Source: a virus. From it: 44,472 nt of DNA. The stretch covers positions 1 to 44,472 of the IMG/VR virus record IMGVR_UViG_3300017788_000046; one strand, written 5' to 3'. The notes under the pieces were generated by a model. That model was not told the origin of the DNA and searched no databases. It saw only the letters and a list, made by a program, of their open reading frames with translations. This document shows, piece by piece, positions 1,710-10,242 of the stretch. A program made the translations under genes and the position numbers. Each line of letters begins with the position of its first letter. Within the stretch, counting starts at the first letter, position 1.

Positions 1710-3191
1710 TTAATCTATAGAATCAGAGATAATTTTAGTGGTTTGCTCTTCATTTAACCCGCCATCCGGCAAGTGTTTTAGAGTATTTGCACGGTCTCCA
1801 AACAATGCTGACATTACACCACCACTAGTTTGACGCTCAACTGTCATACGTACAAACTCCTTGTTTTCTTCTAATTCTTTTAATTGTTTTACTAATTTAA
1901 AAAGCCTATCAATTTCTTGACCGGTGTTGGGATCAGGGTAACCACCATTTAGTTCTTCTGCAAATCGAGAAAAAGCCACTCTGGCGCCCTGCATTTCAAT
2001 AATTGTATTTAAAAGAGCCTTTAATTGATCCTTTGTCTTGACCTCAAGTGGAAGGTTAAAGGCACAAGCTGAATCAGGTTTCATTGCCGGACAGTTAGCA
2101 GCTACAAAACATGTGTTGCACTGTCTCAAGGACATATTAGAATTTTCTATGACTGCGGCGTCACGAATTACGTCTCTTCCGCTACCGTCGGTATCTATAA
2201 TAGTTTTTGAACTCATTGAAAATACCGGCAAAGTTCGTATCTCATCAGCACTTCTGCCCTTAATTTCAACAGATTGTTTCCGCACCTCTAGAGCACTATT
2301 ATCAGGTTCTAACCCCTGTGTTTCCGCTAAACCTGGGTCATCCTTATCAACGTTGTTATCTGATAACATCGGCCTACCTTTTTTTGTTAGGGCCAACTCC
2401 AACTGCAAGTAAGACCAGATTGTTAGTTTTGCTACTTCATTGCTGTCATCATTTAAAATTAAATCAAAGTCTAATCCAGCTTTTTCAACAACTGCTTTAT
2501 ATCTTGATCTGGCTTGGTCCTTCATTTTTTTCTGATACCTTACCAAGCGAGTACCGTCCCAAATAATAGTCTCCCCACGCATCATGGGAGACAACCAAGA
2601 TAGGGTGCTGGCAGTCGTTAATGGGACTTGACGAAGGTTATCCGGGTTAGCGCAAGCAATCCCATGAAAAGATACCCCATACTGGGATTGAAGGGCCCTA
2701 GCCCGTGCTGAAAGCGTTAAATCGGTACTTATAGTCTGGCCCAGAATACCCACGTGAGGGTAGGTTTGAGATAAAGACATAAGGGCTGGGTGACCTAACT
2801 CACCATGCCATATGGGTATAAAACGATCCGCTCCGAAGTCTTCCCAGAAGGTCTTACGCTGTTCGTTGATCCAAGCTGATCCAAGTCCTTTGGCATCCAA
2901 TTCTGTGGCCATAAAAATTCTTTCTTCATTTATGGCTACCCAATCCTCATAATCAGCTGCGTATTCTTCAAGCTCAACGGGGGAGAACTTTTCTTTATTT
3001 ATGTGGTACCCACCCCCGTCTATATAAATCTTTATATCCTCTGGGAAACGTTCTGCAAGCAGGTAATCTTTATTTTTTGGTAGGCCTCGCTTCATTAAAC
3101 GCCAAAAATTAACCCCTATATGCTTAACACCGGCGTCAACTAAGAGCTTTCTGTGAGATGGGACCTCGCCGCCAAGGAAAATTAAGTCCAT
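1710..3191 (-). CDS. tRNA-guanine transglycosylase / DpdA-like protein
   Basis: A 493-residue protein whose first ~210 residues have the motif order of TGT-superfamily TIM barrels, closest in style to archaeosine TGT and DpdA, the enzyme that inserts 7-deazaguanine bases into DNA. Visible landmarks are YIDGGGYH (Asp58, place of the general base in DSGxF), a central IPIWHGE strand, HGIACANPDNL (from residue 176; HGfgvt in DpdA) and TTASTLSWL (192-200; VDSTSW in DpdA). In my hand alignment the nucleophilic Asp of VDSTSW is Ser here, so activity is uncertain. A C-terminal C-x2-C-x5-C-x8-C cluster (358, 361, 367, 376) could bind zinc or Fe-S. I chose the ATG at 3191 (TAATG overlap with the upstream gene, AGGTGG before it) over a GTG at 3200. 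It could modify DNA or tRNA, or only bind; no preQ0 synthesis genes lie in the window. Confidence 0.6.
   Translation of the reverse strand: MDLIFLGGEVPSHRKLLVDAGVKHIGVNFWRLMKRGLPKNKDYLLAERFPEDIKIYIDGGGYHINKEKFSPVELEEYAADYEDWVAINEERIFMATELDAKGLGSAWINEQRKTFWEDFGADRFIPIWHGELGHPALMSLSQTYPHVGILGQTISTDLTLSARARALQSQYGVSFHGIACANPDNLRQVPLTTASTLSWLSPMMRGETIIWDGTRLVRYQKKMKDQARSRYKAVVEKAGLDFDLILNDDSNEVAKLTIWSYLQLELALTKKGRPMLSDNNVDKDDPGLAETQGLEPDNSALEVRKQSVEIKGRSADEIRTLPVFSMSSKTIIDTDGSGRDVIRDAAVIENSNMSLRQCNTCFVAANCPAMKPDSACAFNLPLEVKTKDQLKALLNTIIEMQGARVAFSRFAEELNGGYPDPNTGQEIDRLFKLVKQLKELEENKEFVRMTVERQTSGGVMSALFGDRANTLKHLPDGGLNEEQTTKIISDSID
2354..2368. repeat. Second copy of the 15-nt palindrome TGTTATCTGATAACA
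   Basis: An exact 15-nt match to the core of the palindrome at 1684-1700, in the same orientation and about 670 bases away, inside the TGT-like gene where it encodes part of a linker (residues LSDNN). The linker between the barrel and the cysteine cluster looks free to vary, so the shared palindrome need not be driven by protein sequence. I found no third copy by eye. Confidence 0.5.
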
Positions 3192-3652
3192 TATTCCCAC
3201 CTATTTAAATCATCGTCTAGAGTTAATTTAGCCTTTAATTTTTTTTGAGACTCAATTTCCTGTTTTACATCGTCCCAAGGACGGGTTTCTCGTTTTCTAC
3301 GAGTGAAGTTAGGCTTAGAAAATAACATAGTAGTTACCCCAGAAGCTATAGCAGAAACGCAACGATCTACATCACAGTCTATAAATAGTTCAATTCCCCC
3401 TGAAGATCGGGCAAGGGTTAGTTGGCGTAGGCGTAGGTCTTGACCCTCAAAGGCTAGTCTTTTATCGTATAGCTCAGCATAACCTGTAACTAAGTTAGAT
3501 CTAAGCCAATACTCTGCCTCTTCAGAAGTACCGTCGGTAGCGAGCGCGATGCGATAAGAGCCAACCAGGGTTCTAAAAAGTTTAAGACCCTCATGTATAG
3601 GGTCTCCTACTTCAGTTCTTAGTACGCCGTCTATTGAAATGAATGCTGTCAT
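3191..3652 (-). CDS. HAD-superfamily-like protein lacking the usual nucleophile
   Basis: 153 residues with a HAD-like layout: FISIDGVL (4-11) corresponds to motif I, ALATDGT (Thr39) to motif II, and LFIDCDVDRC (Asp92/94/96) to motif IV. In active HAD phosphatases motif I is DxDGV; here the first Asp is Ser6, while Asp8 is kept. It is therefore probably inactive as a classical phosphatase, or uses another chemistry, or is a binding protein. The last 40 residues are highly charged. It is translationally coupled on both sides: ATGA overlap with the nucleotidyltransferase upstream, TAATG with the TGT-like gene downstream. That suggests the three act together. Family call is by motif only. Confidence 0.45.
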   Translation of the reverse strand: MTAFISIDGVLRTEVGDPIHEGLKLFRTLVGSYRIALATDGTSEEAEYWLRSNLVTGYAELYDKRLAFEGQDLRLRQLTLARSSGGIELFIDCDVDRCVSAIASGVTTMLFSKPNFTRRKRETRPWDDVKQEIESQKKLKAKLTLDDDLNRWE

Positions 3653-4575
3653 GGTTTTTTATTAGTAGCGGCTCTCCTGATTAAAGTATCTGCATCTGGT
3701 AGCTCGATGCCGTAGGTGTCCAATTGTTTTTCTTCTTCATTTAAATCTTTATATTCTTTAATAGCTTTTAGAGCATGTACTGCGCCAGATCTTTTACCGG
3801 CTTGCCAACGGTAGTTATTAAAATCGGAATAGCCGCCACCTATTTTGCTAAAAGCTACTTTTCTACCAGCGTGAATATCCTCATAAAAAGCTACGGCCTG
3901 ATCCACTATGGTTTGTAATCTTTTTTCTGCGTTTATGCGATATGCAGTATTAGAGGCATTTGACCTAACCTCAGAGAGTGCCTGAGTATATCTGCTTACC
4001 AATTCTATTGCCGTATCGTAATCTTTTTTTGATCTTTGCTCCCAACTACGTGAGTAAGGCAATTCAGGGTTTTTATCTGGAAATACCGTCCAAGAATCAG
4101 ACATTAAATCATAGGCTGCGTATGGGTTTATATCTCTAATATCTGATTGAGGGTTTACATAGTAAGTAAGCTCATATCCTTCCCAACTTTTAGTTTTTGG
4201 CATAAGACTTTCATAAAAACTTTCGTTGAACATTTTTGCAATTTCTTCATTAGATAGGCCAACATACTCCTGGTTATACTGTCTAAAAACAGGATAGTTT
4301 ATTCCAATTAAGCAGTCTAAATCTCCAGGATCTCGTGAAGCAGACCATTGATACGATACTCCAGAGCCAGCAAGCCACATAGAAACCCACCTATCTGGAT
4401 TGGTGTATCTAATTCCTAAATGTTCAAAAAGAAATCTTTTTATGCCATTACGCACCCAAGGGCGTAGAGTAGTTCCTATAAATAATCTAGGGTCTAACTC
4501 TGTTTCAGGCTTGCTGAAATAGGAAGTTGAGCTGGGGGACACATCAACTTCTGAGAAACGGTTAGAGATATCCAT
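3649..4575 (-). CDS. Nucleotidyltransferase-fold protein
   Basis: 308 residues. The stretch from residue 68 carries the pol-beta-type nucleotidyltransferase signature: LAGSG (Gly70-Ser71), then DLD (Asp85/Asp87) 14 residues after Ser71, in the strand DLDCLIGI. Such proteins transfer NMP to proteins, RNAs or small molecules; the substrate here cannot be told. The rest is mixed alpha/beta with a Lys/Glu-rich end and no other motif I recognise. It is the first gene of the coupled trio with the HAD-like and TGT-like proteins (4-nt ATGA overlap). The metal-binding pair is intact, so catalysis is plausible. Confidence 0.55.
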   Translation of the reverse strand: MDISNRFSEVDVSPSSTSYFSKPETELDPRLFIGTTLRPWVRNGIKRFLFEHLGIRYTNPDRWVSMWLAGSGVSYQWSASRDPGDLDCLIGINYPVFRQYNQEYVGLSNEEIAKMFNESFYESLMPKTKSWEGYELTYYVNPQSDIRDINPYAAYDLMSDSWTVFPDKNPELPYSRSWEQRSKKDYDTAIELVSRYTQALSEVRSNASNTAYRINAEKRLQTIVDQAVAFYEDIHAGRKVAFSKIGGGYSDFNNYRWQAGKRSGAVHALKAIKEYKDLNEEEKQLDTYGIELPDADTLIRRAATNKKP

Positions 4576-5145: not shown

Positions 5146-5727
5146 CTATTTATATAGTCCAGATGCTTTTCGCATCTGAGTTACTACGTGGGTTTTTACT
5201 GGACAAAAATCACAAAGATACACATTAGTACTTGCTGACTCTGTAGGCATGGGCAATCCAGCCTCTTTTCTTTCAGCGTGTGTTTTAGGTATTAATCTCT
5301 TTTTAGAGTCTCTCCAGTCGGGACAGCCTTCTTTAGGTCGCAAATGCTCTGAATAACATTTCATAGCATCCTCATAGAAAGTTGCTTTAGTGATGTAATA
5401 GTCTGGATCTAGGTCGGCTAGACCACCGCCTACTCGAGAACGAAGATTTTCTATAATCTGCTTACGATACTTTTCGTTGCTCCAAGTCTTTACACCAATT
5501 CTTGATAAGAAACCTGTGTGAGGTACACCAGCACTATTGTGCTTTTCTATAGTCAGTTCTAAAAAGACATCGTCGTCAGGATTACCTTCAAAATCTGGAA
5601 TCTCTTCGATGGTCTTGCAGTTATAGCAGTAGAGCAAACGAATTTTTGGGCCCTCATCTCGGACCTCTACATATTCTCCACCCTGATCGGCTGGATTTCC
5701 TCCACTACCTAAAATAGGCACGCCCAT
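5146..5727 (-). CDS. Hypothetical cysteine-motif protein, 193 aa
   Basis: Contains YCYNCK (Cys34/Cys37) near the N-terminus and CDFC (172-175) near the C-terminus. The two CxxC pairs could form one zinc site bringing the ends together. The N-terminal 20 residues are Gly-rich. Function unknown. It ends 8 bases before the 83-aa gene begins. Confidence 0.65.
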   Translation of the reverse strand: MGVPILGSGGNPADQGGEYVEVRDEGPKIRLLYCYNCKTIEEIPDFEGNPDDDVFLELTIEKHNSAGVPHTGFLSRIGVKTWSNEKYRKQIIENLRSRVGGGLADLDPDYYITKATFYEDAMKCYSEHLRPKEGCPDWRDSKKRLIPKTHAERKEAGLPMPTESASTNVYLCDFCPVKTHVVTQMRKASGLYK

Positions 5728-5768
5728 ATATAACCTCTCTAACTACTTGAGAGGACATCCTACCACAC

Positions 5769-6281
5769 TTAGTATTTAGTAGTTTTTGGCCTATAAATGG
5801 TGCGAGTCGCGGCTTTTTCTTCTTTTCTAACTTTTTCCCGCATCGAAGTATCTTCCGGAACAGTGTAAACTTTAAATTCTCGGCCGTTAACCATCCGGGT
5901 AGTATAACTAGGGGCAGCGGATACTTTTTCTTTTTTGGGCCTTGGTTTTTTAGGGCTCTTTGTTTTAGGGGTTGCTTTAGAATCATCTTTAGACATATGC
6001 TGTAAATAGTGTCTATTTAAATCTACAGCCTCTAAACGAGTTATGTGACCGTCCTTAACGGCATCAGCCACATGCTTAGCAGAAGGTATATTTGATGATT
6101 TTGGGTTTTCTTTATTTATTTTAGAAAACTTATATCCCACTTTGCGTCCTACGGAAATTCCCTTATCAATTAAAGAATTGATTTGTTCTTGATCTAAAGA
6201 TCTTGTATCTGTAGCCCTGCCCTTGAGTAATCCTTGGGACTTTAAAATAGCCCACTGTTGTTTTGTTCGCTTAACGCCCAT
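5769..6281 (-). CDS. Basic hypothetical protein, 170 aa
   Basis: Lys/Arg-rich protein with a helical first half that looks folded (LDQEQINSLIDKGISVGRKV and a following HxxxLxAVDLNRHYLQH segment) and a Lys/Pro linker (around 105-120) reminiscent of nucleic-acid-binding tails. It is the last member of the run of small basic proteins. A role in DNA binding or in the virion is possible; neither is shown. Confidence 0.65.
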   Translation of the reverse strand: MGVKRTKQQWAILKSQGLLKGRATDTRSLDQEQINSLIDKGISVGRKVGYKFSKINKENPKSSNIPSAKHVADAVKDGHITRLEAVDLNRHYLQHMSKDDSKATPKTKSPKKPRPKKEKVSAAPSYTTRMVNGREFKVYTVPEDTSMREKVRKEEKAATRTIYRPKTTKY

Positions 6282-6283
6282 AA

Positions 6284-6943
6284 TTAATCTCTATTTTTTA
6301 AAGAATTAAAATCTCCGCGTATGACTCTTAAAGTCAAATCCTCTGCTTCTTTTCTTCTGCGAATATCAGCAATATTTTTAAATACTGGCTTTCCACCAAG
6401 ATTTGGATTACCTGATCTAGAAGCCTTACCATATCTTCCTCCAGGGTATTGTTTTTGTTTTTTATAAATTTGATCGGATTCAGCTCTTTTACTTTTGATA
6501 AGAGCTTCAACAGCTGAGTTTGCATCCAAAGAGGGGGTGTCATCTACTTGACCCTTATACGCTTCACTGACCGAACGAGTCATTGGAGTAATGTTAGGAG
6601 CAGGTAAATTTTTCTTTTCTGCCCTACGTTTTACTTTTCCAGCACAACTTTGACAAAGAGGAACAAAAGCAACTGGTTCAGTTTTAGCTTTTTCTACATC
6701 TCTTTGTTGCAAACCAGCTAATCTAGTGGCGTCAGCACTACAATTAGTGCCCCAGCAAAGGTGTTCTCTACCTCTTGTAGAACCGCCCTCTAAAACGCTT
6801 TTAGAACCCCCACCTTTGTTACCTTTTACCCCACCACGTTTGCTTTTTACAAATGGGTTTGATTTAAAAGAGTAGTATCCTAAGTATCCTTCATCTAGTT
6901 CTGTAGCCATCAACGATCCCTTTGCATCTGGTCTATCGCACAA
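6284..6943 (-). CDS. Basic protein with HNH-like or zinc cysteine pairs, 219 aa
   Basis: Contains HLCWGTNC (residues 62-69) and LCQSCAGK about 30 residues later, a CxxxxC/CxxC pattern typical of a treble-clef or zinc-ribbon knuckle, embedded in a Lys/Arg/Gly-rich chain. I do not see the catalytic His-Asn-His of an HNH nuclease, so I call only a metal-binding basic protein. It overlaps the next upstream gene by 34 bases. Confidence 0.6.
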   Translation of the reverse strand: MCDRPDAKGSLMATELDEGYLGYYSFKSNPFVKSKRGGVKGNKGGGSKSVLEGGSTRGREHLCWGTNCSADATRLAGLQQRDVEKAKTEPVAFVPLCQSCAGKVKRRAEKKNLPAPNITPMTRSVSEAYKGQVDDTPSLDANSAVEALIKSKRAESDQIYKKQKQYPGGRYGKASRSGNPNLGGKPVFKNIADIRRRKEAEDLTLRVIRGDFNSLKNRD

Positions 6944-7260
6944 GTAGCGCAGGTACCGCTTACTTCACGTGCGGAAGAAAAACTAGAAGTAAAATGACTT
7001 TTTCGTTGAGTCACCCCACCACGATCACGCATACCTTTATTAGCAGCATGAGCCGGCGAAGGATTCTGAGTTAATCCTAAACTGTAGTTAATTTTAGAAA
7101 CAACTCCATCAATTCCATCAGCAGCCATGCCCCCAAGTTTTTTGGCTACGTGTTTTGCACCTTTTTCTTTGTAATCTTTTGCTGCAGGACTATTTTTAAT
7201 CCTGTCTGAAAGCTTCTTCTTTGGGCGGCGCTCATCTCCAGATGACGTTGCAATACTCAT
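6910..7260 (-). CDS. Basic hypothetical protein, 116 aa
   Basis: Lys-rich N-terminus (DERRPKKKLSDRIKNSPAAK), a short Gly/Ala helix-like centre (AKKLGGMAADGIDGVVSKI) and a C-terminal CATC motif. Function unknown. It is ATGA-coupled to the upstream gene and overlaps the downstream one by 34 bases. Confidence 0.6.
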   Translation of the reverse strand: MSIATSSGDERRPKKKLSDRIKNSPAAKDYKEKGAKHVAKKLGGMAADGIDGVVSKINYSLGLTQNPSPAHAANKGMRDRGGVTQRKSHFTSSFSSAREVSGTCATCAIDQMQRDR

Positions 7261-7538
7261 TTTTTGTTATCCCACTTTTTAGATTTACCTTTTAATTTAT
7301 TTATAAACTTATCATCGCCGTAATTATATGAACCCTGAGAACCTTTTCTAAAATAACCGCCGTCATTTGACTGCTTACCTCCACCCGTAGGTCTTTTAGG
7401 AGGTTTTGGAGGATTAGCTGGGGGAGCAGCAGCCGCAGCCTTAGCCTTTTTAGGCAGGACTACAGACTCGCCAACCATTCCTGTTGATTCTTTGCGTGGA
7501 AGGCGACGAGTGTCTAAAGACCTGTCTATTGGATGCAT
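7257..7538 (-). CDS. Low-complexity basic Pro/Lys/Gly protein, 93 aa
   Basis: Begins MHPIDRSLDTRRLPRKEST. The centre is a Lys/Ala/Pro stretch (residues 29-50) and the end is Gly/Tyr/Lys-rich. Apparently disordered. It overlaps the downstream gene by 4 bases. No family recognised. Confidence 0.6.
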   Translation of the reverse strand: MHPIDRSLDTRRLPRKESTGMVGESVVLPKKAKAAAAAPPANPPKPPKRPTGGGKQSNDGGYFRKGSQGSYNYGDDKFINKLKGKSKKWDNKK

Positions 7539-7544
7539 GTTTAA

Positions 7545-7823
7545 TTAGTAAGTAACACCTATTTGATTATTATCAACATCAAATACTGGATACTTGCGAG
7601 CGCGGCTAACTGCGGTATCTCCTACAGGATTTACCTTGTTTGCCTCTTCTGAGTTTACAAAACCATAGTTGTAGAAAGGATGAAGACTGTTGCGATTAGC
7701 AGTAGTAATCTCTTCTCCAGTTCCAGCAGCTACAGTGGTGTTGGGACGAGCCTTGCGGTACTTACCGTCAGTTGCTCCGTCTGCCATGCTTTGATTAAGT
7801 GAGCGTGATTCGTTAGTTGCCAT
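7545..7823 (-). CDS. Hypothetical protein, 92 aa
   Basis: Less basic than its neighbours; it carries NSLHPFYNYGFVNSEEANKV and ends VFDVDNNQIGVTY. The Tyr/Asn-rich style resembles small virion-associated proteins, but I recognise no family. It is separated by 3 bases from the upstream 72-aa gene. Confidence 0.65.
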   Translation of the reverse strand: MATNESRSLNQSMADGATDGKYRKARPNTTVAAGTGEEITTANRNSLHPFYNYGFVNSEEANKVNPVGDTAVSRARKYPVFDVDNNQIGVTY

Positions 7824-7826
7824 TAT

Positions 7827-8045
7827 TTATCCATTCTTTTTCTTAGGTGAAACAACTTTTACCGAGGACATTGGTTCCCTATAATCTTTAGCCGCATCTT
7901 TTCCGGTATTTGTCCACGGATCGGCTTTGTCTGCAGCATTCTTTTTTTGAGCAGCACCAACCGCACTGCCAAAAGCTCTCATTGTTAGCTCGTGAGTACG
8001 AATTGAGTTAACAGTTCTACGAGTGTCTTTGTCGCGTCTAAACAT
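7827..8045 (-). CDS. Basic hypothetical protein, 72 aa
   Basis: Starts MFRRDKDTRRTVNSIRTHE and ends with a PKKKNG tail. Probably one helix (HELTMRAFGSAVGAAQKKNA) between charged tails. It overlaps the 87-aa gene upstream by 8 bases. Function unknown. Confidence 0.6.
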   Translation of the reverse strand: MFRRDKDTRRTVNSIRTHELTMRAFGSAVGAAQKKNAADKADPWTNTGKDAAKDYREPMSSVKVVSPKKKNG

Positions 8046-8301
8046 CTTTTCTTTCCGATCTAGGAGTTTTTATAACTCTTGAGCCAAGACCAATCTGAGG
8101 ACCGCCACGAGTCATACCCATAGCTTCTGCGGGACGACGCTCATTTACGCGTTGCTTACGAAGTTTGGATAGATGAGAGACATCTGAAGGAGTCACTCGT
8201 CCTCCTGGAGCTTCCTCCATTAAACGACGAAGATAATCTTCCTTAATCTCAGTCTTTGGACGACGACGTGGATCCGTGCCTCTACGTGGTGGATTACTCA
8301 T
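8038..8301 (-). CDS. Arg-rich hypothetical protein, 87 aa
   Basis: N-terminal TDPRRRPKTEIKEDYLRRL, then a helical segment with LSKLRKQRVNERRPAEAMG. Strongly basic; no family recognised. Its ATG sits inside an ATGA overlap with the stop of the 45-aa gene upstream, which supports both starts. Confidence 0.6.
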   Translation of the reverse strand: MSNPPRRGTDPRRRPKTEIKEDYLRRLMEEAPGGRVTPSDVSHLSKLRKQRVNERRPAEAMGMTRGGPQIGLGSRVIKTPRSERKDV

Positions 8302-8435
8302 GTCTTTTTCTTCTTTTTCTTCTTTACGTCTTTATCTTTAGATTTAGGTTTTAAATCCTCTGTTTTAAGTGCTTTTAAAGGTACGACCTTGTACTTTGGA
8401 GTAGTGCTTAGTACGTCCTTATTTTTCATGCTCAT
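8298..8435 (-). CDS. 45-aa lysine-tailed small protein
   Basis: Short frame I found by reading the gap between two genes. It starts MSMKNKDVLSTTPKYKVV and ends in a run of about nine Lys before the stop. TAGGAGAAACT lies just ahead of the ATG, and the stop forms an ATGA overlap with the next gene, so it fits the operon exactly. The polylysine tail suggests binding to nucleic acid or another polyanion; this is inference. Confidence 0.65.
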   Translation of the reverse strand: MSMKNKDVLSTTPKYKVVPLKALKTEDLKPKSKDKDVKKKKKKKT

Positions 8436-8465
8436 AGTTTCTCCTATTATTGGTCCTGTGTACCC

Positions 8466-8873
8466 TTAAAGTTTGCCGCCTGGAGTACTCCTACGCTGCC
8501 TATCTGAAGCGACTCCTCCCTTACGCCAGCTAGCAGAACTTCGCTGTCCTGTAGCCATAGTCTTTTGTCCAGAGGCCGTTCCAGCTTTTTTAGGCACTTT
8601 TGTAATTCTTGGACGAATTACTTTTTTGGTCCTAGCTACAAACTTCTTACTGTTTCTATACTTAGATATAGCTCCAGGAGATCCCGGATTTAAATTCATA
8701 GACTGCCTAGATACCCAGGGAGCATCACGAACTACTCGATCCCATCTTAGGGTAGAAAAAGAATTAACCTTAGTTTGAGCAACCCTAGGTTTTTTTCCTA
8801 TTTTTTTAGGAGCAGAATGCGCTTTATGTGGGCGAGGAGCTCTAGGAGCTTTAGGCTGTCGTGGCTTAGTCAT
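8466..8873 (-). CDS. Protamine-like basic protein, 135 aa
   Basis: Almost entirely Arg/Lys/Pro/Ser. The N-terminus MTKPRQPKAPRAPRPHKAH and the later KKVIRPRITKVPKKAG give a very high positive charge with few acidic residues. A short segment DAPWVSRQSMNLNPGSPGAI looks more structured. It may neutralise DNA in the capsid or bind RNA; nothing in the sequence decides. Its ATG overlaps the stop of the zinc-knuckle gene upstream. Confidence 0.6.
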   Translation of the reverse strand: MTKPRQPKAPRAPRPHKAHSAPKKIGKKPRVAQTKVNSFSTLRWDRVVRDAPWVSRQSMNLNPGSPGAISKYRNSKKFVARTKKVIRPRITKVPKKAGTASGQKTMATGQRSSASWRKGGVASDRQRRSTPGGKL

Positions 8874-9025
8874 TTACGCACACTCATGGCTGATTTAGCT
8901 TGTTTTGTATATGCAGCGTTACGACAAGACACGCAAAGCTTGGTTACCCCAGAAAATAAATTTTCTACTGGAGTCATAAGAATTTTGCAACTAGGGCATT
9001 CAACGCTAGAATTATAAACTGTCAC
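8870..9025 (-). CDS. 51-aa zinc-ribbon protein
   Basis: Frame found by reading the gap. GTG start at 9025 in a GTGA overlap with the preceding gene; its stop forms ATGA with the following gene. The product has VECPSCK (Cys10, Cys13) and KLCVSCR (Cys31, Cys34): two CxxC pairs 17 residues apart, a classic minimal zinc ribbon, followed by a basic tail. Such mini-ribbons often bind nucleic acid or partner proteins. The precise coupling at both ends makes it a confident gene. Confidence 0.75.
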   Translation of the reverse strand: MTVYNSSVECPSCKILMTPVENLFSGVTKLCVSCRNAAYTKQAKSAMSVRK

Positions 9026-9381
9026 CAAAATCCACCGCTTTGTGCGTTTCTTAAGGTGCCTTGATAGCCTGCCTGAGAAGCTGTAAAATCTACCCTTGTT
9101 GGCTGGAATTCTTCGTCTACGTTCATAACATCCAGTACAGATAGGGCTCTAGTTCTGTAGCCAAACTTTGGTGGGAAAGGATCTATTTGAGGAAGGTTGG
9201 GACGAACAGCATTTTGAAGAACGTTTCCAGGCATAGTTATGGAGTTTAAAGCTTGACTTAAAAGACGTTCTTGTACTGAGGCAAATGGCCCCATGTAGTC
9301 ATATCGTATGCCGACCTCTTGTTGGTCTGCAACTATTCCTCTGGGCTTACTACGATCATATATTGAATCTTGTGAGTTCAT
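9022..9381 (-). CDS. Hypothetical protein, 119 aa (possibly structural)
   Basis: Not as basic as its neighbours. It contains YDYMGPFASVQERLLSQALN and PNLPQIDPFPPKFGYRTRAL, Pro/Phe/Tyr-rich segments with a style common in small virion proteins, and ends SGGFW. No family recognised. It abuts the 181-aa gene with no gap. Confidence 0.65.
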   Translation of the reverse strand: MNSQDSIYDRSKPRGIVADQQEVGIRYDYMGPFASVQERLLSQALNSITMPGNVLQNAVRPNLPQIDPFPPKFGYRTRALSVLDVMNVDEEFQPTRVDFTASQAGYQGTLRNAQSGGFW

Positions 9382-9927
9382 TTAGTTCCACTTTGGCCTT
9401 AGATGTTTGAATTGATATCCTACTCGAGGATTAAATTCAGCTGGGATATTAGAAGAAATATTAGCTTTGCCATCATTGACAAGTTTTTGATTTTCGCCAA
9501 TTTCAGTCTTAGGCGCATTTCTACGCATAAGCATGTTAATAGCCCCGTTATTATCCACAACGGAGTAAAGATTTTTATTAAGTCTTCGATCTGGTTTTAG
9601 AGCAGATGGCCACATGTATTGGGCAGGATCTATGCGCTCGCCTTTATGAACTCCGCGTTGATATCCGCGTTGAGTTTGTCTACTTTTTAATGAATCAAGA
9701 ACAGTGTCTGATACGGAATAAGGTTTACCTTTATCATCACGACGAGAACGAATAGTTCCTAGATAGCCGTCGGGATATTCAGCCTGTGGGGCACGACCAA
9801 CGCCCATACGAGCGTAGTCCATGTCGCTTCGTGGCACAACGGGAGTGCCTCCACCACCCATGGTGGTGTAGGCGCCTTGATACCCGTTGGCTCCAAGGTA
9901 TTGCCAATTTTGATGTGAGGAAGGCAT
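9382..9927 (-). CDS. Hypothetical protein, 181 aa (possibly structural)
   Basis: Gly/Tyr-rich N-terminus (NGYQGAYTTMGGGGTPVV), then AEYPDGYLGTIRSRR, a charged middle and a C-terminal NPRVGYQFKHLRPKWN. The Gly/Asn/Tyr-rich, Arg-containing composition suggests a virion-associated protein, which is inference from composition only. It is the first gene of the basic block, 15 bases after the 99-aa membrane-type gene. Confidence 0.6.
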   Translation of the reverse strand: MPSSHQNWQYLGANGYQGAYTTMGGGGTPVVPRSDMDYARMGVGRAPQAEYPDGYLGTIRSRRDDKGKPYSVSDTVLDSLKSRQTQRGYQRGVHKGERIDPAQYMWPSALKPDRRLNKNLYSVVDNNGAINMLMRRNAPKTEIGENQKLVNDGKANISSNIPAEFNPRVGYQFKHLRPKWN

Positions 9928-9942
9928 ACCTTTAGTTTACTT

Positions 9943-10242
9943 CTATTTGCCTTTGGCGACTTCCTTAGCTGAAGCTTTTCTTGCTTCTTCAGCAAGTTTA
10001 ACTGAGAGTTCTGCAGCTGCAGCTGAGGCAACTCGGCCAAAAGCTGGATCTTTCTTATTTGCCCAACGAAGAACGGTGGGGATAAGTGATGCCCAGAGAG
10101 CATTTGCTACCAAAAACCACTCACTAGCTCCAAAAGCTAAAGGAGAAGCTATGCCACTGCTTTGAGTTACGATCATAACCGCGGCTACAACTTGACCTAG
10201 AAGGTTGCGTACATACGATTCTATTGCCGGATTTATTTTCAT
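9943..10242 (-). CDS. Small membrane protein, holin-like candidate, 99 aa
   Basis: Two hydrophobic segments (about residues 13-36, LLGQVVAAVMIVTQSSGIAS, and 42-58, FLVANALWASLIPTVLR) followed by a charged, Ala/Lys/Glu-rich cytoplasmic tail (70-99). Size and layout fit class II holins, and it is ATGA-coupled to another one-helix membrane protein just upstream, as in holin pairs. No endolysin gene is adjacent, so the role is tentative. Confidence 0.5.
   Translation of the reverse strand: MKINPAIESYVRNLLGQVVAAVMIVTQSSGIASPLAFGASEWFLVANALWASLIPTVLRWANKKDPAFGRVASAAAAELSVKLAEEARKASAKEVAKGK

Follow-up and report, generated by a model that had tools for sequence, protein, structure and literature searches.

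A DpdA-related barrel without its catalytic aspartate carries a terminase-type four-cysteine domain in a core three-gene operon of actinobacterial myoviruses

The closest described systems to the locus reported here are the phage DpdA proteins, which are 7-deazaguanine DNA transglycosylases, and the terminase small subunits of phages infecting Gordonia, Rhodococcus and Tsukamurella. At least some DpdA genes occur alone, with 76 phages encoding a singleton DpdA without preQ0 genes, and whether such singleton proteins have diverged in function was judged to need further study (Hutinet et al. 2019, PMC6884629). Two of these singleton phages differ in outcome, as Salmonella phage 7-11 contains trace dADG and in Mycobacterium phage Orion a modification was not found (PMC6884629). 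Here, we describe a three-gene cassette on the minus strand of the IMG/VR virus record IMGVR_UViG_3300017788_000046, of which we analyzed positions 1 to 44,472 (the window). The cassette encodes, in this order, a nucleotidyltransferase (NTase)-like protein, a HAD-like protein and a DpdA/TGT-like protein. The last of these combines a barrel related to DpdA with a C-terminal domain related to the terminase small subunits, and it has lost the nucleophilic Asp of DpdA.

The TGT-like gene spans 1710-3191 and encodes 493 amino acids. The longest open reading frame extends to a GTG start at 3200 (1710-3200, 496 amino acids). The ATG at 3191 is the likely start because the corresponding methionine, residue 4 of the longest frame, is invariant in the family alignment. 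The TIM barrel covers residues 4-270 (2391-3191). The protein matches phrog_887 (E 1e-61), and a comparison of the family with five phage DpdA proteins by hhalign yields a probability of 96.7 (E 4e-10), with the N-terminal half alone reaching E 3e-15 against true DpdA. The five DpdA proteins include those of Edwardsiella phage ZHS, whose gene neighbors are QueC and GTP cyclohydrolase I, and of MT835752, with QueC, QueD and QueE alongside. With the DpdA profile, the TGT-like gene is detected at E 1e-16 to 1e-18 in each of the five Streptomyces phage genomes searched, and among 15 freshwater genomes it is detected in 2. An AlphaFold2 model, built like all our models from alignments of the window and IMG/VR rows only, mostly reaches a pLDDT (predicted local distance difference test) of 80-90 across residues 1-270. 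Its Foldseek neighbors in BFVD include viral queuine tRNA-ribosyltransferases (E ~1e-8). Foldseek against the PDB returned generic TIM barrels with no TGT at the top, so the fold claim rests on the profile comparison and on BFVD. An earlier sequence-only reading of this DNA had proposed a TGT-like barrel from motif order, and both the order (IDGGG...ELD...PIWHGELG...HGIACANPDNL...TASTLSW) and the predicted barrel bear this out. The barrel is homologous to phage DpdA (PMC6884629) throughout, with the D-x-G-[GA] motif, the 'VW' strand, HG and S-x-x-S-x-x-W in the same order. On this sequence evidence, we regard the barrel as a true DpdA relative that descended from phage DpdA.

Unlike phage DpdA, the family has no aspartate at the nucleophile position. 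The window protein carries Ser198 there (codon 2607-2609), reading TASTLSW where DpdA reads SVDSTSW, and the serine already recognized in the sequence-only reading is the most frequent state among 179 family members (Ser 131, Ala 36, Thr 8, His 4, Asp 0). All three true DpdA proteins aligned have Asp. The single Asp encountered in the count belongs to the true DpdA of MT835482, which is not a family member. The general acid/base Asp of the D-x-G motif is not conserved either, being present in about 100 members and replaced by His (30), Glu (17), Tyr (13), Thr (12) or by Asn, Ser and Ala, which leaves about 80 members without it. The window protein retains its equivalent, D61 (DGGG, codon 3018-3020), as well as D102. 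Invariant positions include the four cysteines of the C-terminal domain and scattered residues such as W202, T211, W214, Y222 and E255. In the alignment, conservation is thus shifted off the catalytic residues, and the barrel is probably catalytically dead.

The genomic context also differs from that of DpdA phages with an intact pathway. Profiles for QueC and QueD found no match in any of 21 cassette genomes and the FolE profile found none in 20, while among three control records with intact DpdA, QueC and QueD were recovered in all three and FolE in two. The absence of preQ0 genes described for the window therefore extends to relatives. The accompanying suggestion of a new base-modification system is not supported, with the nucleophile missing in 179 of 179 members and QueC, QueD and FolE absent from the cassette genomes tested. 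Further differences from phage DpdA are the fused C-terminal domain and the NTase and HAD-like genes upstream.

The C-terminal domain (residues 355-496, positions 1713-2138) contains a four-cysteine cluster, C-x2-C-x5-C-x8-C, formed by C361, C364, C370 and C379 (2064-2120), each invariant in 179 relatives. This cluster had been singled out from the sequence as an additional feature of the protein, and it proved to be the informative part, as it leads to terminase small subunits. Two PHROG families named terminase small subunit match the domain (E 0.0064 and 0.048). Outside the family and two gut phages discussed below, permissive tblastn searches with the domain hit almost solely records of Gordonia, Rhodococcus and Tsukamurella phages, annotated as small terminase wherever a function is named. 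Aligning the C-terminal regions of the family and of these terminases with hhalign gave a probability of 91.8, E 7e-7 and a score of 48.7, whereas reversed, shuffled and unrelated controls scored 13 to 20. When a profile of the terminase C-terminus was run against 18,634 open reading frames of all loci, 56 members of the four-cysteine domain family ranked at the top, the first being a cut copy of the four-cysteine gene of gut phage BS162P1 from locus L058. The reverse search with the family domain placed terminases first. Foldseek matched the TGT-like model to the small terminase of Gordonia phage Jumbo over the whole chain with E 2e-6 and a template modeling (TM) score below 0.3. From these searches, we consider the four-cysteine domain to be homologous to the C-terminus of the terminase small subunits of Gordonia, Rhodococcus and Tsukamurella phages.

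The small terminases compared (Monty, Woes, Jumbo, Orchid, GTE7, GMA3, TIN2 and Mbo2) share with the family the homologous cysteine cluster and the helical region following it, at a similar position in proteins of similar size. The homologue immediately precedes the large terminase gene in ten Gordonia, Rhodococcus and Tsukamurella phages. In contrast to the family, the N-terminal half of the small terminases is not recognizable as DpdA by sequence, and their gene abuts the large terminase gene with no adjoining NTase or HAD-like genes. The small terminase homologue of Rhodococcus phage ReqiDocB7 is split, in its annotation, into consecutive genes for an N-terminal and a C-terminal part (L331:152-1548). 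On the chromosome of Streptomyces sp. ISL-96, the four-cysteine domain forms a short separate open reading frame without a barrel (L315:6061-6513), possibly a prophage remnant.

The gut phages BS162P1 and MT835482 carry the same two building blocks as neighboring genes, with the four-cysteine gene just downstream of DpdA (6893-7720 and 7770-8525 in L048; 3518-5716 and 5719-6480 in L051). Unlike the family, their DpdA retains the aspartate, and both phages encode QueC and QueD, with FolE in addition in BS162P1. A viral scan with the two gut-phage four-cysteine proteins recovered no further relatives. The DpdA of MT835482.1 (L051:3518-5716) has an intein-like insert right beside the catalytic Asp (FFSSDSS...TTWLGG), and its gene is flanked by QueC upstream and QueE downstream. 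Both gut phages have a QueD-like gene immediately upstream of the large terminase match (OP172706.1 8811-9969; MT835482.1 10605-11824). The gut-phage arrangement might represent a stage in the conversion of an enzyme into a packaging factor. DpdA would once have been active beside a four-cysteine partner, the two would then have fused, and with the loss of catalysis the barrel would have become the DNA-recognition part of a small-terminase-like protein, with the NTase and the pseudo-HAD protein as companions. We see this course of events as possible and hold it with some reserve.

The NTase-like gene (3649-4575, 308 amino acids) encodes an NTase domain followed by a helical domain. The GSG-x-S...DLD motif reported as intact is indeed present (G70-S71-G72...D85-L86-D87, 4315-4368), and a third carboxylate, E135 (4171-4173), lies in the YELTYYV strand. 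G70, S71, D85, D87 and E135 are invariant in 176 relatives. In the AlphaFold2 model (pLDDT 88), the strands 64-69, 84-92 and 134-140 occur in the right order, so that the G-S motif, D-x-D and the third carboxylate fall on successive strands as in the Pol-beta-type NTase signature. Foldseek of the model against the PDB gave no significant match, only helical noise, and the family search returned only DUF6932, below its cut-off. The HAD-like gene (3191-3652, 153 amino acids) reads FISIDGVLR at motif I, where Ser6 (codon 3635-3637) replaces the first, nucleophilic Asp, in agreement with the sequence-only reading. Across 169 relatives this position is occupied by S, A, F, V, Y or E, making phosphatase chemistry unlikely, and no Pfam HAD family was reached. 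For any of the three cassette proteins, the Pfam and NCBIfam libraries gave no assignment above cut-off and sequence searches against solved structures returned nothing useful. The NTase is the sole member of the cassette with a predicted enzymatic activity. The genes overlap at ATGA (NTase/HAD-like) and TAATG (HAD-like/TGT-like), consistent with the translational coupling of all three proposed earlier.

The order NTase, HAD-like, TGT-like is conserved in more than 150 relatives, comprising freshwater and soil contigs, Streptomyces phages and Nonomuraea prophages. The IMG/VR loci were collected with three queries, namely the TGT-like protein, the NTase and the C-terminal domain. Among 80 loci anchored on the NTase, 79 have all three genes in order, and the sole exception is a contig ending just past the NTase; the three genes thus co-occur, and neither of the two outcomes named beforehand as refuting the earlier reading, a missing TGT barrel or a lack of co-occurrence in relatives, came about. 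By tblastn, both the NTase and the TGT-like protein are found at ~35% identity in six records of five Streptomyces phages, namely BRock (twice), GiJojo, LuckySocke, Alone3 and pSt2308. The phrog_887 proteins of BRock and GiJojo are direct orthologues of the window protein at this level of identity and in the same gene order, differing from the window by an extra low-complexity gene between the HAD-like and TGT-like genes. Nonomuraea genome contigs contain all three genes and a Saccharothrix contig contains the HAD-like and TGT-like genes. In a few relatives (L222, L235, L282, L295), the HAD-like and TGT-like genes are present but no NTase was detected. Among contigs chosen by their tail sheath, all ten of 88 kb or longer have both the NTase and the TGT-like gene, and the one miss is a 63 kb fragment; the module is thus core in the phage group rather than an occasional accessory. 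The group is a large set of ~100-115 kb actinobacterial myoviruses with a three-gene core operon. A search for phrog_6902 among 296 Actinomycetota genomes found no match.

In soil relatives, one or several additional genes interrupt the cassette, whose order is unchanged. The inserted genes encode ParB-like (GHHR) and ADP-ribosyltransferase-like (LYHGT) proteins (L177:6083-8896, L145:5948-6805, L211:4974-5642), the latter with a weak PHROG match to RNA 2'-phosphotransferase, and many share a similar short N-terminal tag, for example HLGPQF or VGAQF. The break at which the pSt2308 record opens falls between the HAD-like and the TGT-like gene (L049:1-1913, L004:11959-13455), and near-complete relatives are opened at scattered positions, as expected of circularly permuted genomes or of assembly.

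We tentatively favor, at somewhat less than even chances, a reading in which a catalytically dead DpdA has turned into a DNA-recognition or packaging factor, acting as or with a small terminase subunit. The DpdA barrel would have lost its catalytic residues and become fused to a C-terminal domain of the small-terminase type. The dead barrel might then serve as a DNA-binding module tied to the packaging machinery by the C-terminal domain, and the TGT-like protein would work as, or together with, the small subunit in choosing the DNA to package. The pseudo-HAD protein may be a structural partner, and the NTase may nucleotidylate a partner, either protein or nucleic acid. In GiJojo, a single terminase gene is annotated, the large subunit. 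Several observations weigh against a packaging role. Model confidence is low in the C-terminal part of the TGT-like protein, and between the N-terminal halves of Gordonia-type terminases and the barrel the sequence match (E 0.019) is not significant and no better than a control. In Gordonia phages, it is the position of the gene and its annotation that underlie the name small terminase. The large terminase gene is not adjacent to the TGT-like gene where both were located, with ~40 kb between them in GiJojo. Two short conserved open reading frames (86-121 amino acids) lie directly upstream of the large terminase (L340:832-1375, L336:404-1020) and could be alternative small-terminase candidates. 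At a threshold of E 1e-5, Gordonia phages yielded no NTase match, and the NTase and HAD-like proteins are therefore not general packaging partners.

The cassette might instead be an RNA- or tRNA-directed module for host takeover, with tRNA bound by the dead barrel and handed on to the NTase for nucleotide addition or the capping of RNA ends. Binding of nucleic acid is known for TGT barrels, and in eukaryotes QTRT2 is a catalytically inactive TGT partner that binds tRNA. Only the NTase has an intact, invariant active site, and GiJojo encodes many tRNA genes, RNA ligases, a polynucleotide kinase and a Ro-like protein, all of which fit such a module. However, the C-terminal domain points to terminase and not to RNA, and the window, which is only part of the genome, has no tRNA gene. 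Searches with the DpdA profile found no second TGT in any of the 5 Streptomyces phage and 15 freshwater genomes, so an active TGT for a heterodimer is not available from the phage. We consider this module unlikely. Slightly more doubtful is nucleotidylation of proteins or nucleic acids, toxin-like or for host takeover, with the NTase acting, the two pseudoenzymes as scaffolds or regulators, and no link to packaging. The invariant NTase site next to two partners without nucleophiles would suit this idea, as would the ADP-ribosyltransferase-like and ParB-like insertions in soil relatives, yet it leaves the terminase-type domain unexplained and the four relatives without a detected NTase keep the other two genes. 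Continued base exchange by the TGT-like protein, through another nucleophilic residue or a host-supplied base, is very improbable. In its favor are the conserved barrel, the retained D61 and D102 of the window protein, and the phages with DpdA but no preQ0 genes, among them phage 7-11 with its trace dADG (PMC6884629). Against it are a nucleophile and a general acid that vary across the family, the missing QueC, QueD and FolE, and the unmodified DNA of the singleton-DpdA phage Orion (PMC6884629).

The window comes from a contractile-tailed phage and has recognizable genes for sheath, tube, baseplate, DnaB-like helicase, primase, DNA polymerase and a UvsX-like recombinase. The cassette had been described as standing directly upstream of a ribonucleotide reductase gene. 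Such an open reading frame does occur at 1-1656, running off the window, but in Streptomyces phage GiJojo the reductase gene is located far from the cassette, and we rejected a functional tie between the two. Upstream of the cassette, the gene at 5146-5727 encodes a protein with two cysteine knuckles (CYNC, CDFC), and it is conserved ahead of the cassette in soil relatives as well (L211 1903-2427, L282 2231-2710, L314 1416-1907). Also upstream, 5705-10242 holds a run of small Lys/Arg-rich low-complexity proteins.

In the accessible literature, with subscription papers outside the search, we found no relevant paper that joins small terminases with the DpdA/TGT family or describes the cassette, and the link between a DpdA barrel and the terminase small subunit is apparently undescribed. 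Database labels such as queuine tRNA-ribosyltransferase or DpdA get read as evidence of anti-restriction DNA modification. The BRock and GiJojo proteins, named queuine tRNA-ribosyltransferase and dpdA-like tRNA-guanine transglycosylase, are implied to be active, and the missing nucleophile argues against this; such a label is very probably mistaken for the TGT-like family. The terminase link provides a testable, specific function for a core gene of a widespread actinophage group. Under the favored packaging reading, the family would show an enzyme fold taken over for recognizing DNA. If the enzyme was converted in this way, the DpdA and four-cysteine gene pair of the gut phages would suggest that base modification and packaging were once coupled.

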